From the NCBI RefSeq assembly GCF_024500045.1, contig NZ_JTEO01000004.1, forward strand, positions 496,001-560,000: 64,000 nt of DNA, given 5' to 3'. The notes beneath the pieces are model-generated. The model worked only from the letters and a program-made list of their open reading frames with translations. It ran no database searches and was not told the DNA's origin. The stretch is from Methanolobus chelungpuianus (GTDB taxonomy: Archaea > Halobacteriota > Methanosarcinia > Methanosarcinales > Methanosarcinaceae). How positions within the stretch are numbered: position 1 is the stretch's first letter; each line of letters starts with the position of its first letter. Below, piece after piece: positions 1-8,033 of the stretch. A program made the translations under genes and the position numbers.

Positions 1-792
1 GCGCCCATACGTATCATCTTGGGGGATCAGGATGCAAGAAGGCTTGTGCAGCCTGCCACCGGGCTGGATATTACTGAAAGGATGGCTGATTTTACTTCTG
101 CGTATCTGGACAGGCTCGATACTATTGATGGAGCCATCCTTAAATCAAGGTCTCCTTCCTGCGGCATCGGGAATACGAAGATCTTTTCCTCTTCCGCGAG
201 CAAGGATTGCCTGCACCGCAAGGGTACAGGTTTTTTTGCTGAAGGACTGAAACTTCATTTTCCGTCCCTTCCCACAGTGGATGAAGAGCAGCTTTACGAT
301 CCTGCGATAAGGGATGACTTCCTGGCGCGTGTCTTTGCCCTGGCCTCGTTCAGGGAGGCGGCAGGGTCAGGAAAAATGAGTGAACTGTTGGACTATCACA
401 CGCGCAACAAGTTGCTATTGATGGCTTTCGACAAGAAGGCCATGAAATGGATGGGTGACCTTGCGGCCAACCATGGGAAGCGCCCGCTTGATGATGTACT
501 GAAGGACTATGGCCGATCTATCCGGGAAGTGCTTTCCCGGGAGGCCGGTATCGGGTCGAACATCAATGTGCTCATGCACGCAATTGGTTATTTTTCCGAC
601 AGGCTGACAGGTGATGAGAAGCTCCTCTTTGAGGGCATGATAAGCAAATACCGCAGGGACAGCACTGTGCTGGCGGAGCTCAGGCAACTCCTCCTTTCCT
701 GGATAATGCGCTCCAATGTGGAATATCTGGCTCAGCAGACTTACTTTTCCCCTTATCCTCCCGAACTGTCGGGGACTTTGCGGCAAGTTTGA
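1..792 (+). CDS. DUF523/DUF1722 (YbgA-type) protein, 5' end outside window
   Basis: The reading frame is open from base 1, so the true start lies upstream; 263 residues are visible. The first ~70 residues are the end of a DUF523 domain: an early LVQPATG stretch and the ILKSRSPSCG signature, with its conserved cysteine at about visible residue 54. Residues ~130-250 are a DUF1722 (YbgA-like) domain rich in K/R and LL motifs. DUF523 proteins include thiouracil desulfidases (TudS) that carry an iron-sulfur cluster; DUF1722 has no firm function. The fused architecture is common in bacteria and methanogens. A TTG at base 19 could be mistaken for the start, but homology continues upstream of it. The precise substrate is unknown. 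Confidence 0.8.
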   Translation, partial: APIRIILGDQDARRLVQPATGLDITERMADFTSAYLDRLDTIDGAILKSRSPSCGIGNTKIFSSSASKDCLHRKGTGFFAEGLKLHFPSLPTVDEEQLYDPAIRDDFLARVFALASFREAAGSGKMSELLDYHTRNKLLLMAFDKKAMKWMGDLAANHGKRPLDDVLKDYGRSIREVLSREAGIGSNINVLMHAIGYFSDRLTGDEKLLFEGMISKYRRDSTVLAELRQLLLSWIMRSNVEYLAQQTYFSPYPPELSGTLRQV

Positions 793-855
793 TATCTCCG
801 GACCTCATAGTCTTATACGGGATCGCTTGTACGCGGCGACCAGGGGTAATGCAAA

Positions 856-1107
856 ATGGAAGATGAGTTTCGGGAAAATGGTGATATGGATTTTCCGGAC
901 ATCGGGGATGATGACCCGGAAGAGACCGTGCAGGTCTGTCCTGTGTGCGGGAGCATGGAACTTTACTATGAGGCAGGCGGAGTCGAAGGACTGTACCACT
1001 GCAAGAACTGTGGCTACATCGGCTCTTTCATCGTAGAGGCCAACGAGGAAATGGCCAGGCTGATCAGGGAAGAGTACGAGAACAAGGGACGTAATACTGC
1101 ACTATAG
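856..1107 (+). CDS. small zinc ribbon protein
   Basis: An 83-residue protein of unknown function. The first 27 residues are very acidic and probably disordered. Then come two CxxC knuckles, C28-x2-C31 and C49-x2-C52, in a CPVCG...CKNCG pattern typical of a rubredoxin-like or transcription-factor zinc ribbon, followed by a helical tail (EEMARLIREEYE). Such proteins may bind nucleic acid or protein, but nothing here decides which. It lies 63 bp after the DUF523 gene on the same strand and may be co-transcribed. The start is the ATG at 856; a weak purine-rich stretch precedes it. Confidence 0.7.
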   Translation: MEDEFRENGDMDFPDIGDDDPEETVQVCPVCGSMELYYEAGGVEGLYHCKNCGYIGSFIVEANEEMARLIREEYENKGRNTAL

Positions 1108-1200
1108 GCTGGCCTGCCGTAATTGGCAGTTGCTGCATTCTGAGAAAAAGTGATTGCGGGTATCACCGGAGTGATACCTTTGAACGTTGGGATATTATGC

Positions 1201-1791
1201 TTAAGCTGCTGCAGGAAGTGCCTTGACTTCGGTCTTCCTGATCTCGACCCTTCTGAGGGGGTAGATGAACTTAGCATTCCTGTAGATGTTTGCGGAAAGC
1301 TTGCCCATGATGGCTTCTTCGATGAACTGCTCGAAGTTGAGTTCTGCTGCGCGCTCAACGACGATCTTGTTCATGATCTCCCTGATGGACTTGATCTGGC
1401 TGGTCCTTGCCCTCTTGACAGTGAAGCAGATGGGCTTGACCCTTATGACGTAGCCGTCCTTTGTGGTCACATCGAGGTTGGTGTCGATCCTTGATGTCTG
1501 GCGCTTGACGATGGAGCGCAGGTAATCGGTTGTGATTTCGTGTCCAATGAATCTGGTGTTGGCAACGTCACCATTGACTTCACTGATCTCGAGGATGAGC
1601 TTTGTGTTGTGTTTTGTGAAGTCGTTTGCTATCTCTCCGACAGTGGTCTCAACAACACGGCCAACGAGCTGCTCCGGGTCTTCTGCAGGGGTAACTCCGA
1701 TGTTTGTCCTGCTGATGAACTCGGGTGTCTCTACGTTGTACCAGGTCTTTGACTTCCACTTGTCTAACTTTCTCTGTACTTTCTTTGCCAA
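1201..1791 (-). CDS. rps1e: 30S ribosomal protein eS1 (S3Ae)
   Basis: A 196-residue protein beginning [18 protein letters not shown], the hallmark N-terminus of the archaeal/eukaryotic eS1 (S3Ae) family, at the usual length. It is a structural protein of the small subunit near the mRNA exit. The start is TTG at 1791, chosen because a strong Shine-Dalgarno GGAGGAATT lies just upstream and the next residues are the conserved AKK. It is monocistronic here; a TATA-like element near 1921-1930 on the minus strand would give a leader of about 110 nt. Confidence 0.97.
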
Positions 1792-1917
1792 GGAATTCCT
1801 CCGGATGAGTGTGATTTTATGATATTGATAATGTAATTGGTGTAAGTGTTCAACGGGCGATCATGATATGAAATGAAGTAATCTATGCATTAAATTGGCT
1901 TTCTATAGTAGTCATGT

Positions 1918-1930
1918 CCGTATATAAAGA
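1918..1930 (-). promoter_or_regulatory. probable TATA element of the eS1 gene
   Basis: On the minus strand the sequence reads TTTCTTTATATACGG, a good archaeal TATA box preceded by a purine-poor BRE position. It would place transcription start near 1900, roughly 110 nt before the eS1 start codon. No rightward gene begins nearby, which supports the minus orientation. Confidence 0.4.
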
Positions 1931-2017
1931 AATCGGTTCATGCGGTATTTTACAGAGTGCGGCCATGAAAATATGAATATTGACCCACAGATCCGGGACA
2001 AAATATTGAGAGAGGCT

Positions 2018-2479
2018 CTATTTTATCTCTCCTGTTTCCTTTAAGAAGCTTATCCACCGGCGTGCTTCAGCGACTCTCTCGCGATTAAACGTTTCAAAAA
2101 ACTCTTTCTCTTTTTCTTTTGACACGCCCTCTTCAATATCCCTGAGATCCATGAGAGTGCGCAAGAGTCCGGCAGTCTCATCGAACAACTTCTTTGCTTC
2201 TTCTTCTGTAAGTTGCCCGGTTGCCAGTTCAAGCTCATCTTCTTTTGCTTTTTCACTGATGTGCAGAATGCACCTGTCAATAAATTCCCTGTCTTTGTTA
2301 TCAAGTTTCTTTTTGTTGAGAAGCTCCCATACAACAGTGTGCGGGTTGTACTTCTTTCCATTCAGTTCTATATTATAAGGTATCTCTCTGCCTACCCAGA
2401 TCAGGCGCCGATGTAACGCTGCAAGTAGATGCTTTCTCTCATGTTCTGTAATGGTCCTATCTTCAGACGTTTCGCTCAT
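2018..2479 (-). CDS. DUF5788 family protein
   Basis: A 153-residue soluble, highly charged, helical protein that matches the DUF5788 family of methanogens; function unknown. The first half holds a conserved-looking HLLAALHRRLIWVGREIP segment. The rest is rich in K/E heptads (about residues 75-135) and could be coiled coil. The ATG at 2479 has a good Shine-Dalgarno (GGGGGA) 4-5 nt upstream. The gene stands alone, convergent with nothing and divergent from thiM. A 26-bp near-perfect palindrome sits ~30 bp upstream, about where transcription should begin, so the gene is probably tightly regulated, perhaps by itself. Confidence 0.75.
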   Translation of the reverse strand: MSETSEDRTITEHERKHLLAALHRRLIWVGREIPYNIELNGKKYNPHTVVWELLNKKKLDNKDREFIDRCILHISEKAKEDELELATGQLTEEEAKKLFDETAGLLRTLMDLRDIEEGVSKEKEKEFFETFNRERVAEARRWISFLKETGEIK

Positions 2480-2509
2480 AAATCCCCCTTTGATAAACTG
2501 TCAGGGTGG

Positions 2510-2535
2510 CACAAATACTTAATTAGTACTTGTGC
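2510..2535. promoter_or_regulatory. 26-bp palindrome upstream of the DUF5788 gene
   Basis: Two 11-bp arms, GCACAAATACT and AGTACTTGTGC, flank a self-complementary AATT. Twelve of thirteen pairs match; the one mismatch is 2516/2529. A minus-strand TATA-like element (ACTTATATTTGC, near 2545-2555) would put transcription start inside the palindrome, so it looks like a repressor operator rather than a terminator. No T tract follows on either strand. Confidence 0.6.
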
Positions 2536-2859
2536 TTTAATGCAAATATAAGTTTAGAGGATTCCATTTGTCAACTTATCATTTCCTTATCTATGAGCTA
2601 TCTGACAACTTTCATCCCTTTTGTGCTGGGCCTCATATTCCCACCATGTTTTTTATTGAATGTCTGGGCAGTTTGGCAGCGTAACTTGAAAAGGCCTTGG
2701 ACATTCCTATATTTATACATGAATATGGTGGAAGTACATACAGGGTAAACTGCCATCCGCATGATTAATACATAATGAGCTCGATAGCGGGTCATCGACT
2801 GGAATCACTATTTGAACATGTCAATCCAGGACGTGCAAAAATAAGCATCGAGGACTATA
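2536..2859. other. intergenic region upstream of thiM
   Basis: No supported gene in these ~320 bp between the DUF5788 and thiM promoters. I looked for a TPP riboswitch, expected from thiM function, and did not find the conserved CTGAGA and ACCTGA elements. A stretch near 2705-2720 (CCTATATTTATACATG) could be a TATA element for thiM, giving a leader of about 120 nt. Confidence 0.4.
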
Positions 2860-3645
2860 ATGAAGGACCCACTCAAGACACTGAGAGAAACAAGACCGCT
2901 GATACATCACATAACGAACTGGGTAACGATATATGATTGCGCCAACATCACAAGAGCATTCGGTGCGCTTCCGGTGATGGCACATGCACGCGAGGAATGC
3001 GCCGATATGACAGGTATTGCATCCGCGCTTGTGATCAACATCGGCACCCTGACATCCGAGCTTATCGACTGCATGATCATCTCGGCAGCCGCCGCGAACA
3101 AGAAGGGCACCCCGGTAGTGCTTGATGCAGTGGGTGTCGGTGCAACAAAGTTCAGGGACGACATGGCTGCGAAAATCCTTAACTCCGCAAGGGTCGACAT
3201 CATCAAGGGCAATTATTCAGAAGTGGCAAAACTTGCAGGTGAACATGCGCAGACCAAGGGAGTAGAGGCAACCTCCATAGATGCCGATCCCCTGCAGGTC
3301 GCAAAAGCTCTGGCAGGGTCAAGGTCGTGCACCGTGGTCATGACAGGCAAAGAGGACATAATAAGCGATGGTAAAAGGACTTATATTGTGAGGAACGGCC
3401 ATGAAAGGATGGGCTCCATTGTCGGGACCGGCTGTATGGCTGCGTCGATAATAGGCTCTTTCGCCTCTGTCAACAGCGATCACTGCGATGCTGCAAAGGA
3501 TACACTATGCTATTTTGGCGTGGCAGGGGAACTGGCAGCCGCAAAGTCGGAGGGCCCGGGAACATTCAAGATGTACCTCTATGACGAGGTGGCCAACCTT
3601 ACAGATGAAAAAGTAAAACCCCTGATGGACTTCGAAGAACTCTGA
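2860..3645 (+). CDS. thiM: hydroxyethylthiazole kinase
   Basis: A 261-residue ThiM, the ATP-dependent kinase that phosphorylates 4-methyl-5-(2-hydroxyethyl)thiazole for thiamine salvage. Visible family motifs are HHITNWVT near residue 16, LDAVGVGA near 88, a [12 protein letters not shown] segment, and the catalytic GTGCMAAS near 189, whose cysteine lies where ThiM enzymes carry their conserved active-site Cys. Length is normal. It is followed 9 bp later by thiE, so the two form a thiamine salvage operon. No riboswitch was seen upstream. Confidence 0.95.
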
Positions 3646-4344: not shown

Positions 4345-5046
4345 TTAGCTGAGTTTTGCCCTTGCGGATTCCACTGCATTCTTACTGACAGTCTTTGATG
4401 CAAACGTATCCGCCAATCCCTCAAGCTCATTTCCTGTACAGTTCCTGGTAAATGTTATCATGGACAGGTTTCTCAGAATGGGAGTTCCGGTCCTGTGACG
4501 CAGATGCCATACTTCGTGTGCAAGTATAGCTTTCAGTTCGTCCATGTCCATGATCTCGATCAGCCCGATGGACAGGAAGATGGCCTTTCCGCAAGCGAAT
4601 GCTCTTGGGACTGCAGAATCGTAATAATAGACATTCACTGTGCCGGATGAGTTCAAACTACTGTTGTTTCCGACCTTGTTTACAAAAGCCTGAGGCCATT
4701 CCATGATTTCCACGATCGGTCTGGCCCTGTATCTTCCGATGAGGACTCTCTGGTATACTCGCGGCAGGAGCAGGGCCGCGAGAGTCGAGAGGCCGGCATA
4801 AGCTGTGTATATCTCAATAGTAAGCATCCGGCTGCAGTGCATGGATGAGACGACTATGCCGATAGAAGCGAGCATGCATAACTGTGCGGCAATGAATGAG
4901 GATATACGGATGCCGGGAGTTTTGGCATTAAAATATGACACGAACAGCAACAGGGCCGTGAACAGCGATGCCAGCAGCAATGGAAGCATGCCAGAATCTG
5001 AGATGCAGGTAATGTAGCATCCGATCTCATTGCTTATGGAAAACAT
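4345..5046 (-). CDS. BlaR1/M48-like membrane metallopeptidase
   Basis: A 233-residue protein with three hydrophobic segments in its first ~95 residues (about 18-37, 50-66, 73-92), then a cytoplasmic-type zinc peptidase domain. HEVWH at 177-181 is the HExxH zinc site, and E209 in ELEGLAD fits the third ligand of M48 enzymes (ExxAD). It lies 44 bp downstream of a BlaI-type repressor on the same strand. In BlaR1-BlaI and MecR1-MecI pairs the membrane peptidase senses a signal and inactivates the repressor. There is no penicillin-binding sensor domain here, so the signal must differ. It could be a short housekeeping M48 protease, but the pairing argues for a sensor. Confidence 0.75.
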   Translation of the reverse strand: MFSISNEIGCYITCISDSGMLPLLLASLFTALLLFVSYFNAKTPGIRISSFIAAQLCMLASIGIVVSSMHCSRMLTIEIYTAYAGLSTLAALLLPRVYQRVLIGRYRARPIVEIMEWPQAFVNKVGNNSSLNSSGTVNVYYYDSAVPRAFACGKAIFLSIGLIEIMDMDELKAILAHEVWHLRHRTGTPILRNLSMITFTRNCTGNELEGLADTFASKTVSKNAVESARAKLS

Positions 5047-5090: not shown

Positions 5091-5447
5091 TTATTTCTTG
5101 TTATAGGTATGGAAGTTCTCTATGGCTACCTTGCCGAAAGTGTCCACAAGGCTATCCAGCACCTTGCGGGTGATGGAATTTGCCGTGCTGTCCATGGACT
5201 CGCTTGCGGAATACAGATATCTTACCCGCTGTCCGCTCCTGTCCACTGTCCTTTTTGCATAGCCGGCCTTTACAAGCCTGTCAAGCGTCCCTGCAACGCT
5301 GGATAGGGGGATACCCGTCCTTTCAGTGATATCGGGCGTGGTGCACTCACCGTTCTCCCAGAGGACTGTCATTATCTGGGCCTCGATGGGACTGAAGAAC
5401 TTGGTAAGGCCTTCATTTGAAAGGTTTATCCGGTCAAGTTTAACCAT
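5091..5447 (-). CDS. BlaI/CopY-type winged-helix repressor
   Basis: A 118-residue winged-helix protein. Residues ~13-80 match the BlaI/MecI/CopY fold: FSPIEAQIMTVLWENGE, TTPDITERTG and a recognition helix SSVAGTLDRLVKAGY, then a basic wing (KRTVDRSGQRVRY). The C-terminal ~40 residues should dimerise. The frame extends to a TTG at 5471, but the ATG at 5447 is preferred because a 17-bp TTTACA-N5-TGTAAG inverted repeat (5451-5467) lies just in front of it, where an autoregulatory operator is expected. It is followed by the membrane peptidase gene and is divergent from the ABC transporter operon, whose promoter has three more copies of the repeat. Confidence 0.85.
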   Translation of the reverse strand: MVKLDRINLSNEGLTKFFSPIEAQIMTVLWENGECTTPDITERTGIPLSSVAGTLDRLVKAGYAKRTVDRSGQRVRYLYSASESMDSTANSITRKVLDSLVDTFGKVAIENFHTYNKK

Positions 5448-5450
5448 GCG

Positions 5451-5467
5451 TTTACAACAGGTGTAAG
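5451..5467. promoter_or_regulatory. BlaI-type operator at the repressor gene
   Basis: TTTACAACAGGTGTAAG: half-sites TTTACA and TGTAAG around a 5-bp spacer, one mismatch. It abuts the repressor start codon on its upstream side, so binding would block its own transcription or translation start. The TACA...TGTA half-sites are those known for BlaI, MecI and CopY operators, although spacing in those is shorter. Confidence 0.6.
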
Positions 5468-5588
5468 GCAATATAAGTCTTACTGTGCCGCATAAGCTGA
5501 GTCTTGATAAAGATCAGCATGCTCTTTTGCTCTGCTTTTTGTTCCACTAGTTCACGGGCCCGTTTTGAATACCTGCAGATGCAAGTGC

Positions 5589-5605
5589 TTTACATTGAAC
5601 GTAAA
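5589..5605. promoter_or_regulatory. BlaI-type operator, copy 1 of the transporter promoter
   Basis: TTTACATTGAACGTAAA. The flanks extend the symmetry to 7-bp arms, GCTTTAC at 5587-5593 and GTAAAGC at 5601-5607. Same 17-bp frame as the copies at 5617 and 5642. Confidence 0.6.
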
Positions 5606-5616
5606 GCTCAAATAGA

Positions 5617-5633
5617 GTTACAGTTATTGTAAA
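5617..5633. promoter_or_regulatory. BlaI-type operator, copy 2 of the transporter promoter
   Basis: GTTACAGTTATTGTAAA, half-sites GTTACA and TGTAAA around GTTAT. Its centre lies 28 bp from copy 1 and 25 bp from copy 3. Its right half and the left half of copy 3 also form GTAAAG-N6-CTTTAC, so the copies could be bound cooperatively. Confidence 0.6.
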
Positions 5634-5641
5634 GTATGCGC

Positions 5642-5658
5642 TTTACATTCACTGTAAA
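5642..5658. promoter_or_regulatory. BlaI-type operator, copy 3 (perfect) of the transporter promoter
   Basis: TTTACATTCACTGTAAA, a perfect 6-bp inverted repeat around TTCAC. It is the best copy of the four and the closest to the permease start codon at 5709. Confidence 0.65.
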
Positions 5659-5673
5659 TTTGCTGCAGACTAT

Positions 5674-5689
5674 GCCGGGACGCCCCGGC
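5674..5689 (+). other. GC-rich hairpin in the transporter leader
   Basis: GCCGGG-ACGC-CCCGGC lies between the operators and the permease Shine-Dalgarno (GAGGTAATT). CTGCAG occurs on both sides and could lengthen the stem. There is no T tract, so it is more likely a leader structure than a terminator. Confidence 0.4.
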
Positions 5690-5708
5690 TGCAGATGATG
5701 AGGTAATT

Positions 5709-6884
5709 ATGCATTTACACTCTTTGGTCCTGAAAGATATATCCCGCAGAAAAACAAAACTCCTTGTTGCTGTACTCGGTGTGGTGGTGGCCTCTGCGGC
5801 AATGGTCGCGGTAGTGACAACTTTTTCAGCAGCTACCGACAGCCTTTACGAAGAATCCAACAACTTCGGTGCAAACATCATTGTAAGGCCGGAGGTCAAG
5901 ACCATTCCACTGGTGGCGGGCTCCACTTCCATGGGTTCCCTGTTCACAGGCGAGAACTACATCGAGGAATCGGATATTCCCCGGATACACACCATAATGG
6001 ACAGTTCCAAATTGTCCGCTGTGGCGCCGAGATTATACGGGGTCGCAGAACTTGGAGATTCGTCAGTCGTTATAATGGGCGTGGATCCGGACGAGGAAAG
6101 GAAGCTCAAGTCATGGTGGAAAGTGCAGGGCAGCTGGATATCCTCTGAAAACACCGGTCCGACCGAAGTGATGGTCGGTTCTGATATAGCCACACCGCTC
6201 GGACTTACCGAAGGCTCCCTCATCACTCTCCGCAATGGTAATATCTCCATGGATGCCCGGGTCGCAGGTGTGATAGAAAGCACAGGCAGCAATGAAGATG
6301 CGTATGTGATACTCCCGCTTGCAGCTTCCCAGTATCTGCTCGACAGGGAGGGGAAAGTAAGCAGCCTTGAGGTCAGGGCATTGTGCAACGAATGCCCGGT
6401 TGAGGAGATCAGCATGCAGATCGAGGATAAGTTCCCCGGCCTGGAAGCCAGGTCCATGAGCCAGATAGTCCGCAACGAGCTGGCAATTGTGGAACACACC
6501 CGGTCTTCTGCGATGGCAGTCTCGATCATCACTCTGCTTGTGAGTACACTGACCGTGGCTTCCACCATGCTTGCCTCAGTGAACGAGAAGCTCAAGGAGA
6601 TAGGGATTATGCGTGCGGTTGGTGCCAGTGATGTGCAGGTCGTATCCATGCTGTTCTTTGAAGGCGCTATCATAGGGGCTGTGGGAGGCGTTATCGGGTT
6701 TGCTGCAGGAACAGTCGCTTCCACTATTGCCGCTCCCCTGCTGGTACAGGTGACCCCCTCTCCAATGTGGTCGATCCTGCTTCCTGTGACAGGCATGTGT
6801 GTCTTTACAGGCATGCTGGCGTCCATACTTCCTGCTAAGAGGGCTCTTGGTGTTGATCCGGCGGAGGTGCTGAGAAGTGTCTGA
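5709..6884 (+). CDS. FtsX/MacB-type ABC transporter permease
   Basis: A 391-residue permease of the MacB/FtsX type. One N-terminal membrane segment (~17-38) is followed by a ~220-residue extracytoplasmic domain. Three C-terminal segments (about 265-290, 318-345, 355-378) carry the FtsX signature IMRAVGAS. Such permeases do not import small solutes through a channel but drive extracytoplasmic work or extrusion. The start ATG has a GAGG Shine-Dalgarno. The gene overlaps the ATPase gene by 8 bp, and an FtrD-like lipoprotein gene follows. Three BlaI-type operators lie upstream, so expression should depend on the divergent repressor. The substrate is not shown; the FtrD-like neighbour suggests iron. 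Confidence 0.88.
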   Translation: MHLHSLVLKDISRRKTKLLVAVLGVVVASAAMVAVVTTFSAATDSLYEESNNFGANIIVRPEVKTIPLVAGSTSMGSLFTGENYIEESDIPRIHTIMDSSKLSAVAPRLYGVAELGDSSVVIMGVDPDEERKLKSWWKVQGSWISSENTGPTEVMVGSDIATPLGLTEGSLITLRNGNISMDARVAGVIESTGSNEDAYVILPLAASQYLLDREGKVSSLEVRALCNECPVEEISMQIEDKFPGLEARSMSQIVRNELAIVEHTRSSAMAVSIITLLVSTLTVASTMLASVNEKLKEIGIMRAVGASDVQVVSMLFFEGAIIGAVGGVIGFAAGTVASTIAAPLLVQVTPSPMWSILLPVTGMCVFTGMLASILPAKRALGVDPAEVLRSV

Positions 6885-7548
6885 TGATAATATGATACGC
6901 ATCCTGAAAGCAGGCAAAAGATACCGCATAGGAAGCGGTGAGCTTGAAGTGCTGCGTGATGTCAGCCTGGAAGTGAAAAAAGGTGAGTTCGTATCCGTTA
7001 TGGGACAGTCGGGCTCGGGTAAGACCACCCTGATGAACCTTATCGGCATGCTTGACAGTCCCAGCGGGGGAAGCATATCCATCGACGGCGCCGATATCAC
7101 AGGCAAGTCCCAGAAAGAGCTGGTTGCACTGAGGCGCAGGACTGTTGGTTTCGTTTTCCAGCAGTTCCATCTTATACCCTCGCTCACGGCCTACGAGAAT
7201 GTAGCCCTGCCTCTGATCTTTGCAGGGGAGAAGGATGACGGATCTGTGGCCGCTGCTCTGGAGAGGGTCGGACTGTCCCATCGGAGGGAGCATAAGCCTG
7301 CGGAGCTGAGTGGAGGAGAACAGCAAAGGGTCGCCATTGCACGTGCGATCGTCATGAGGCCGAAGATATTGCTGGCCGACGAACCCACAGGGGCGCTGGA
7401 TGCAGCTACAGGCTCGATGATTATCTCCCTGTTAAGGTCGCTGGCAGGAGAAATGACTGTGATCATGGTCACTCACAACAGTGAACTTGCTAAGCTGTCC
7501 GATCGCATCGTGAATTTGAAGGACGGGAATATCGAGGAGGAGAAATGA
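6877..7548 (+). CDS. ABC transporter ATP-binding protein (MacB/LolD type)
   Basis: A 223-residue ATPase with Walker A GQSGSGKTT (~42-50), Q-loop FVFQQFHLIPSL, signature LSGGEQQRVAIARA (~145) and Walker B ILLADEPTGALD (~164). This is the LolD/MacB subclass that pairs with FtsX-type permeases. GTG at 6877 is the start: GGAGGTG lies 7 nt upstream, while the later ATG at 6892 has no Shine-Dalgarno. It overlaps the permease stop by 8 bp and the following lipoprotein start by 4 bp, so the three genes are one translation-coupled operon. Confidence 0.95.
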   Translation: MSDDNMIRILKAGKRYRIGSGELEVLRDVSLEVKKGEFVSVMGQSGSGKTTLMNLIGMLDSPSGGSISIDGADITGKSQKELVALRRRTVGFVFQQFHLIPSLTAYENVALPLIFAGEKDDGSVAAALERVGLSHRREHKPAELSGGEQQRVAIARAIVMRPKILLADEPTGALDAATGSMIISLLRSLAGEMTVIMVTHNSELAKLSDRIVNLKDGNIEEEK

Positions 7549-8033
7549 GATCAAAAACAATAGTTATGATTTTGTCAGTGCTGGTATTGGCCGCATTTGC
7601 ACTTGGATGCACCGGGAACGATTCACTGAAAGGCTCTGCAAGGCCCGTGGAAGCTGTATGGATAAATCCGGCCGTGAAGGCGGATGTAGTTTCCATACCC
7701 ATTGAGGCAGTAGATAAGAACACCAATGTTCACTTTAAAGTAAATACAGGCGCCAGCGAAGTTGCAGTAATGGCTTACAGGCTGGGCGATGAACTATTTA
7801 TCAGGTCCAGTGTTTGCCCACCCTGCGGTTCCATGGGATTTGCACTCGAAGGGAACATACTCGTATGCGATGCTTGTGCCACCAGGTTTGATGCCTCCAC
7901 AGGCATGGGCGTAGGAGGTGCCTGTATAGCATATCCCAAGGAGAGCATTCCCTATACAGTCTTGGACGGAAATCTCACAATGAGCCTCAGTGACATCATG
8001 ACTGCATATCAGGAAACCTTAGAACCGAACTAA
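7545..8033 (+). CDS. FtrD-like (DUF2318) iron-sulfur lipoprotein
   Basis: A 162-residue secreted lipoprotein: a basic start, a hydrophobic stretch and a lipobox-like FALGC ending at C22. The mature part has C91-x2-C94, C108-x2-C111 and C127 in SVCPPCGS, VCDACATRF and GGAC. This is the cysteine pattern of the DUF2318/FtrD-like membrane iron-sulfur family. Relatives accompany Ftr1/P19-type iron uptake loci, which also carry FtsX-type permeases and an ATPase. The ATG overlaps the ATPase stop by 4 bp and follows GGAGGAG. I infer a redox or metal-handling role outside the membrane in partnership with the ABC pair. No Ftr1 permease or P19 protein is in the window. Confidence 0.75.
   Translation: MRSKTIVMILSVLVLAAFALGCTGNDSLKGSARPVEAVWINPAVKADVVSIPIEAVDKNTNVHFKVNTGASEVAVMAYRLGDELFIRSSVCPPCGSMGFALEGNILVCDACATRFDASTGMGVGGACIAYPKESIPYTVLDGNLTMSLSDIMTAYQETLEPN

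Follow-up and report, generated by a model that had tools for sequence, protein, structure and literature searches.

A conserved operator array and a putative BlaI-type, protease-controlled gene switch in methanogenic and methane-oxidising archaea

The closest described counterparts of the locus reported here are bacterial. In the BlaI-BlaR1 system, BlaR1 cleaves the repressor BlaI between Asn101 and Phe102 (PMC9834060). The operator of the CopY/CopR repressors, RNYKACANNTGTMRNY, contains an N2 spacer (PMC7253601), compared with N5 in the archaeal sites described below. The DUF2318 domain of FetA from Campylobacter carries a CxxC-x13-CxxC-x15-C motif (PMC6083913), and the FetA neighbours FetBCD make up a predicted ABC transporter on which normal growth at low iron depends (PMC10783030). 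The literature searched for archaeal BlaI circuits yielded nothing relevant and no description of the switch considered here; nor did it name a regulator of cytochrome c maturation in archaea. In the eLife 2022 and PLoS Biol 2022 papers on archaeal Ccm, BlaI and regulator terms lead to no Ccm transcription factor.

The locus lies in a 64-kb stretch of Methanolobus DNA, referred to as the window, and comprises a repressor-peptidase gene pair, an ABC/FtrD operon on the opposite strand and four palindromic sites between them (Table 1).

Table 1. Features of the repressor-peptidase and ABC/FtrD locus in the window
Feature	Position	Strand	Remarks
Membrane M48 metallopeptidase, 233 aa	4345-5046	-	Pfam PF01435, 4.4e-8; lies downstream of the repressor, in the same direction
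HEVWH zinc/catalytic motif of the M48 peptidase	4504-4518	-	H177, E178, H181 invariant in 48/48
Span of Cys10, Cys14, Met69, Cys71, Met74 of the M48 protein	4825-5019	-	Candidate extracytoplasmic sensor cluster
BlaI/MecI-type winged-helix repressor, 118 aa	5091-5447	-	Pfam PF03965 Penicillinase_R, 2.1e-9
Asn111-Phe112 codons, candidate scissile bond	5112-5117	-	Aligned with BlaI Asn101-Phe102
Autoregulatory operator	5451-5467	-	TTTACAACAGGTGTAAG, 1 mismatch; between repressor TATA-like box and start codon
TATA-like box of the repressor gene	5470-5477	-	CTTATATT; leaderless promoter inferred
Operator 1, ABC/FtrD promoter	5589-5605	+	TTTACATTGAACGTAAA, 1 mismatch; upstream of expected TATA position
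Operator 2, ABC/FtrD promoter	5617-5633	+	GTTACAGTTATTGTAAA, 1 mismatch
Operator 3, ABC/FtrD promoter	5642-5658	+	TTTACATTCACTGTAAA, 0 mismatches, perfect palindrome arms
MacB/FtsX-type ABC permease	5709-6884	+	PF12704, PF02687
ABC ATPase, LolD/FtsE/MacB class	6877-7548	+	PF00005, 1.1e-37
FtrD-like (DUF2318) lipoprotein	7545-8033	+	PF10080, 1.6e-10

The initial annotation had proposed four TTTACA-N5-TGTAAA palindromes, and all of them are present, beginning at positions 5451, 5589, 5617 and 5642. Measured from start to start, the ABC-promoter sites are separated by 28 and 25 bp, as claimed, and the site said to abut the repressor gene (5451-5467) ends 3 bp before the ATG (5447). With at most one mismatch allowed, the four sites are the sole matches in the window and account for four of the 11 matches in the 2.6 Mb genome. 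One such site occurred in 42 of 20,000 first-order Markov copies of the region 5440-5709 and more than one in none. When gaps of 0-15 bases between TTTAC and GTAAA were compared in this region, a gap of 7, which equals N5 between TACA and TGTA, alone gave more than one match, namely four. The core TTTAC-N7-GTAAA fits the sites slightly better than the original motif because the inner A/T is often G/C. The four palindromes are far beyond chance expectation.

Of 60 related genomes, 22 gave repressor matches at E 1e-3, the majority of them strong, and none was found in the viral contigs searched. A scan of named genomes yielded 50 repressor loci from Methanolobus, Methanosarcina, unclassified Methanosarcinaceae, ANME-2 and Methanoperedens. 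In all 50 loci examined for it (the window and 49 of these) an operator is located 19-21 bp upstream of the repressor start codon, with TAC (positions 3-5) and TAAA (positions 14-17) invariant and G13 varying once. A similar AT-rich TATA-like box precedes this operator at the same place in nearly all loci, which positions the operator between the TATA box and the start of an apparently leaderless gene. The three-site array of the ABC promoter recurs in the Methanolobus and Methanosarcina loci with the window's spacings of 28 and 25 bp (two loci deviate by 1 bp), and Methanosarcinaceae MAGs keep two of the ABC-promoter sites. The expected conservation of the repeats beside repressor orthologues is thereby borne out, both for the autoregulatory operator and for the array. 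Terminators, hairpins or mere chance repeats would be an alternative to protein-binding sites, since palindromes are able to form hairpins, but this reading is refuted by conservation and must be regarded as extremely improbable: position, spacing and core bases have been maintained across deep divergence, unlike the DNA around them, and the simulated copies do not reproduce the pattern.

Within Methanolobus, the 10 of 27 genomes that have the full-length repressor are exactly those with the FtrD family, which the other 17 lack. A co-occurrence of repressor and CcmE was rejected for this genus, as CcmE is found in all 27 genomes with the repressor present or absent. In a sister species (L035) the repressor is 100% identical to that of the window (5091-5447) while the M48 protein differs by 8%, and strong selection on the repressor is therefore suggested. 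In Methanosarcina sp. ERenArc_MAG2 the repressor frame is truncated and two operators remain (L131:8001-8278), apparently a decaying copy, beside which no M48 or ABC neighbours were found.

The assignment of the repressor to the BlaI-type family agrees with its Penicillinase_R match, which spans residues 19-112 and scores 38.2 bits against a cut-off of 22.6; related MarR and TrmB models are also above cut-off. The structure model depicts a wHTH plus a single long C-terminal helix. Its closest folds are MarR proteins, and fold comparison does not separate BlaI from MarR. The C-terminal CxC metal-binding motif of CopY is absent from the repressor, the single cysteine of which (C35) is not conserved. 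As the direct HMM alignment with MecI stops before the Asn-Phe region, the candidate cleavage site was located on BlaI (1sd4): in a profile including distant relatives, Asn101-Phe102 of BlaI corresponds to repressor residues 111-112, gap-free there but with low local alignment confidence. Six residues only follow Phe112, far fewer than in BlaI. Asn-Phe is kept in 48 of 49 repressor orthologues, the exception being L130, where the M48 gene is absent as well and the operator is degraded. One locus (L046) retains Asn-Phe, repressor and operator and has lost its M48 neighbour; the link between Asn-Phe and M48 is therefore suggestive, not proof, and conservation of the pair may instead serve dimer packing.

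A membrane peptidase had also been named as partner of the repressor, and this holds: an M48 gene follows the repressor gene in 47 of 48 evaluable loci of the 50-locus set (18 of 20 in the first set), the two genes often overlapping. The protein belongs to M48 and not to M56, the family of BlaR1. For the window peptidase, Pfam gives Peptidase_M48 only, plus DUF5700 below cut-off, with no M56 domain, and a BlaR1-type extracellular penicillin-binding (beta-lactam) sensor domain is absent from the 233-aa protein. Of the gluzincin motifs, H177ExxH181 is invariant and E209xxxD213 conserved. Five residues outside the catalytic domain, C10, C14, M69, C71 and M74, do not vary in any of 48 proteins, many of which are only ~40% identical to the window protein. 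The model, which is of middling confidence (pLDDT 77), consists of an N-terminal helix with C10/C14, two TM helices, a short loop with M69/C71/M74, a long helix and the protease domain. It has no Foldseek matches at E < 0.001, and among membrane-protein structures it matches BlaR1 best (8exq; probability 0.99, E 0.016). Judging from charge distribution and helix order in the model, the Cys/Met parts would face outward and the protease inward.

A distant relative, L057, matches both M48 and M56. There (L057:6115-10599) and at L058, a distant repressor and an M48/M56-like peptidase lie next to a Fer4 protein and a MacB-type ABC operon; TTTAC-N7-GTAAA sites are missing, and other palindromes in the upstream DNA, CTACTAT...ATAGTAG, may be the operator of this repressor. 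Many Methanoperedens loci have an additional M48 gene of HtpX-like type behind either the repressor or the first M48 gene (L045:3753-4727), and at L051:5831-6799 such a gene comes immediately after the repressor.

The repressor might also bind its sites but sense the signal directly or via a non-proteolytic partner, with M48 as a nearby housekeeping or quality-control protease. Such sensing would suit a protein whose model is closest to MarR folds, most MarR-fold relatives being ligand-responsive, as well as L046, which kept repressor and operator without an M48 neighbour, and the L055 paralogue described below, which lacks an adjacent M48 gene. We nevertheless rate it as rather unlikely in view of the near-perfect M48 pairing in Methanosarcinaceae, ANME-2 and Methanoperedens, where the genes often overlap, of the Asn-Phe conserved at the BlaI cut position, and of a repressor with one non-conserved cysteine and no CopY CxC motif. 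Proteolytic relief remains the preferred reading.

The FtrD-like lipoprotein contains CPPC-x13-CDAC-x15-C at 7815-7925 (read from the sequence), which fits CxxC-x13-CxxC-x14,15-C. An FTR1/FetM permease (PF03239) was searched for in the window genome and not found. The permease-ATPase-FtrD operon and the repressor orthologue are located on different contigs in two ANME-2 genomes, G037 and G040 (L160, L161), and the operon promoter still has the sites. In G037 an operator pair 28 bp apart, with CTATATATCC between, is followed by the start codon of the unlinked operon, and in the unlinked ANME-2 copies the pair equivalent to operators 1 and 2 flanks a clear TATA box. The persistence of sites at unlinked operons is the strongest argument that the ABC-promoter sites belong to the repressor and are not a by-product of adjacency. 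In Methanoperedens (L168:3941-6019, 311-3489) an FTR1 protein with Fer4_5 domains adjoins an operator-bearing ABC ATPase-permease set, possibly an archaeal Fet-like system.

TTTACR-N5-YGTAAA has 72 occurrences in five Methanoperedens-family genomes, compared with 9 for the reversed control (~8-fold). N4 spacing in Methanoperedens-family genomes (13 versus 11 in the control) and the bacterial-type N2 spacing (4 versus 7; 12 genomes) are at background level. The spacer had been suspected to differ from that of the bacterial boxes, and it does so at all sites; as N5 is enriched and N2 is at background, N5 is the true archaeal geometry. No enrichment is seen in 15 genomes without the repressor (10 versus 22), so that the motif tracks the presence of the repressor, which supports the repressor as binder.

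About 42 of 60 sites in four Methanoperedens-family genomes are located in promoters of a coherent gene set (manual count), which includes CcmE, CcmF, CcmH, CcdA/DsbD, two kinds of thioredoxin, an ABC ATPase (adjoining an FTR1-Fer4_5 gene in one genome), AsnC-TRASH regulators and the repressor. One thioredoxin heads a thioredoxin-CcmF pair, the other a thioredoxin-PCYCGC-CcdA-Fer4_5 operon. Several CcmE promoters show the order operator-TATATA-operator with 29 bp spacing, a layout as in operators 1 and 2 of the window. The circuit of the initial annotation, which ran from the repressor onto the ABC/FtrD operon, is thus supported by the sites conserved there, but it is not confined to that operon and covers cytochrome c maturation in Methanoperedens.

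Further sites were observed in single genomes. In Methanoperedens G050, a NuoL/Mrp-like proton-pump gene is preceded by two operator-like sites, at distances of about 180 and 384 bp (L163:3353-3574). G037 encodes a second BlaI paralogue, 31% identical, with the motif at its own start codon (L055:7576-11545) and two motif copies before a thioredoxin-PCYCGC-DsbD-Fer4_5 operon; it has no M48 neighbour. For Methanolobus, a regulon beyond this locus was not found, the remaining genome matches being at control level; one of them (C6:183947) falls within an ORF.

The sites 4-10 bp before the AsnC-TRASH start in several Methanoperedens genomes could suggest that the palindromes bind another regulator, such as the AsnC-TRASH protein, with the BlaI-type gene merely one target. 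However, TRASH_HVO_1752 proteins are missing in G040, in G048, in the window genome and in most of the Methanosarcinaceae that bear operators, which marks them as targets and not as the binder; this candidate was rejected on that account. Enrichment follows the BlaI-type gene, and the diverged BlaI paralogue at L055 carries such sites too, both at its own start and ahead of the neighbouring operon, so that binding by another regulator is very unlikely.

Binding of the BlaI-type repressor to the palindromes is strongly supported by these comparisons. An autoregulated repressor relieved by the M48 membrane protease is, as a whole, the probable explanation. The 118-aa protein would bind TTTAC-N7-GTAAA palindromes as a dimer. 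At the site between the TATA box and the start of its own leaderless gene it would repress the repressor-peptidase pair, and through the three ABC-promoter sites, the first two of which are placed like the TATA-flanking pairs in relatives, it would shut the permease-ATPase-FtrD operon, presumably by blocking TBP/TFB or polymerase. Cleavage by the M48 protease at Asn111-Phe112 in the dimerisation helix would derepress both promoters, and in Methanoperedens the same switch would control the cytochrome c maturation machinery. More tentatively, and with slightly less than an even chance, an M48 protease with a Cys3Met2 sensor on the outer face may cut the BlaI-type repressor in response to extracellular metal, heme or thiol-redox state; this would be the first archaeal BlaR1-like switch and would control cytochrome c assembly, hence extracellular electron transfer, in methane-oxidising archaea.

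Methanoperedens needs c-type cytochromes for the outward transfer of electrons from methane. If the mechanism is true, the tuning of cytochrome c maturation genes is explained by a single small repressor whose operator can be read, and BlaI/BlaR1 regulated proteolysis, known from antibiotic resistance, extends to archaea with a different protease family and signal. The recurrence of repressor, protease and palindromes in methane-making and methane-eating archaea, with palindromes also ahead of cytochrome c assembly genes, points to a protease-controlled gene switch of archaea that has not been described before.

Compared with known systems, the operon resembles the Campylobacter FetABCDEF iron-uptake cluster in combining a DUF2318 CxxC-x13-CxxC-x15-C protein with an ABC permease and ATPase, and at L093 also in a thioredoxin that follows FtrD. 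Unlike that cluster, it has one permease gene, and its FtrD, a small lipoprotein, lacks both the eight TM helices and the YHS domain of FetA. No FTR1/FetM was found in the window genome. A Fur site precedes the Campylobacter cluster. The archaeal Ccm system (CcmABCEF in Methanosarcina, CcmH in ANME-2d) enters as regulon targets in Methanoperedens. With the CopY/CopR copper repressors the repressor shares the superfamily and targets in metal/redox chemistry outside the membrane, but it has no C-terminal CxC metal motif and no copper ATPase among the targets seen. By its domain it is a member of the BlaI/MecI/CopY superfamily, but it neither follows the N2 operator rule nor has the metal motif of CopY. 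The peptidase resembles BlaR1 in layout without being an M56 member. Closest are the staphylococcal BlaI-BlaR1 and MecI-MecR1 systems, with which the locus shares a Penicillinase_R repressor, an autoregulated repressor-protease pair, TACA/TGTA-like half-sites, a membrane gluzincin with HEXXH and ExxxD, and Asn-Phe at the cut position. It differs from them in being archaeal, in the M48 instead of M56 protease, in a predicted outer Cys3Met2 cluster in place of the beta-lactam sensor domain, in half-sites 3 bp further apart, and in its targets, which are cytochrome c maturation and ABC/FtrD genes instead of beta-lactamase or PBP2a.
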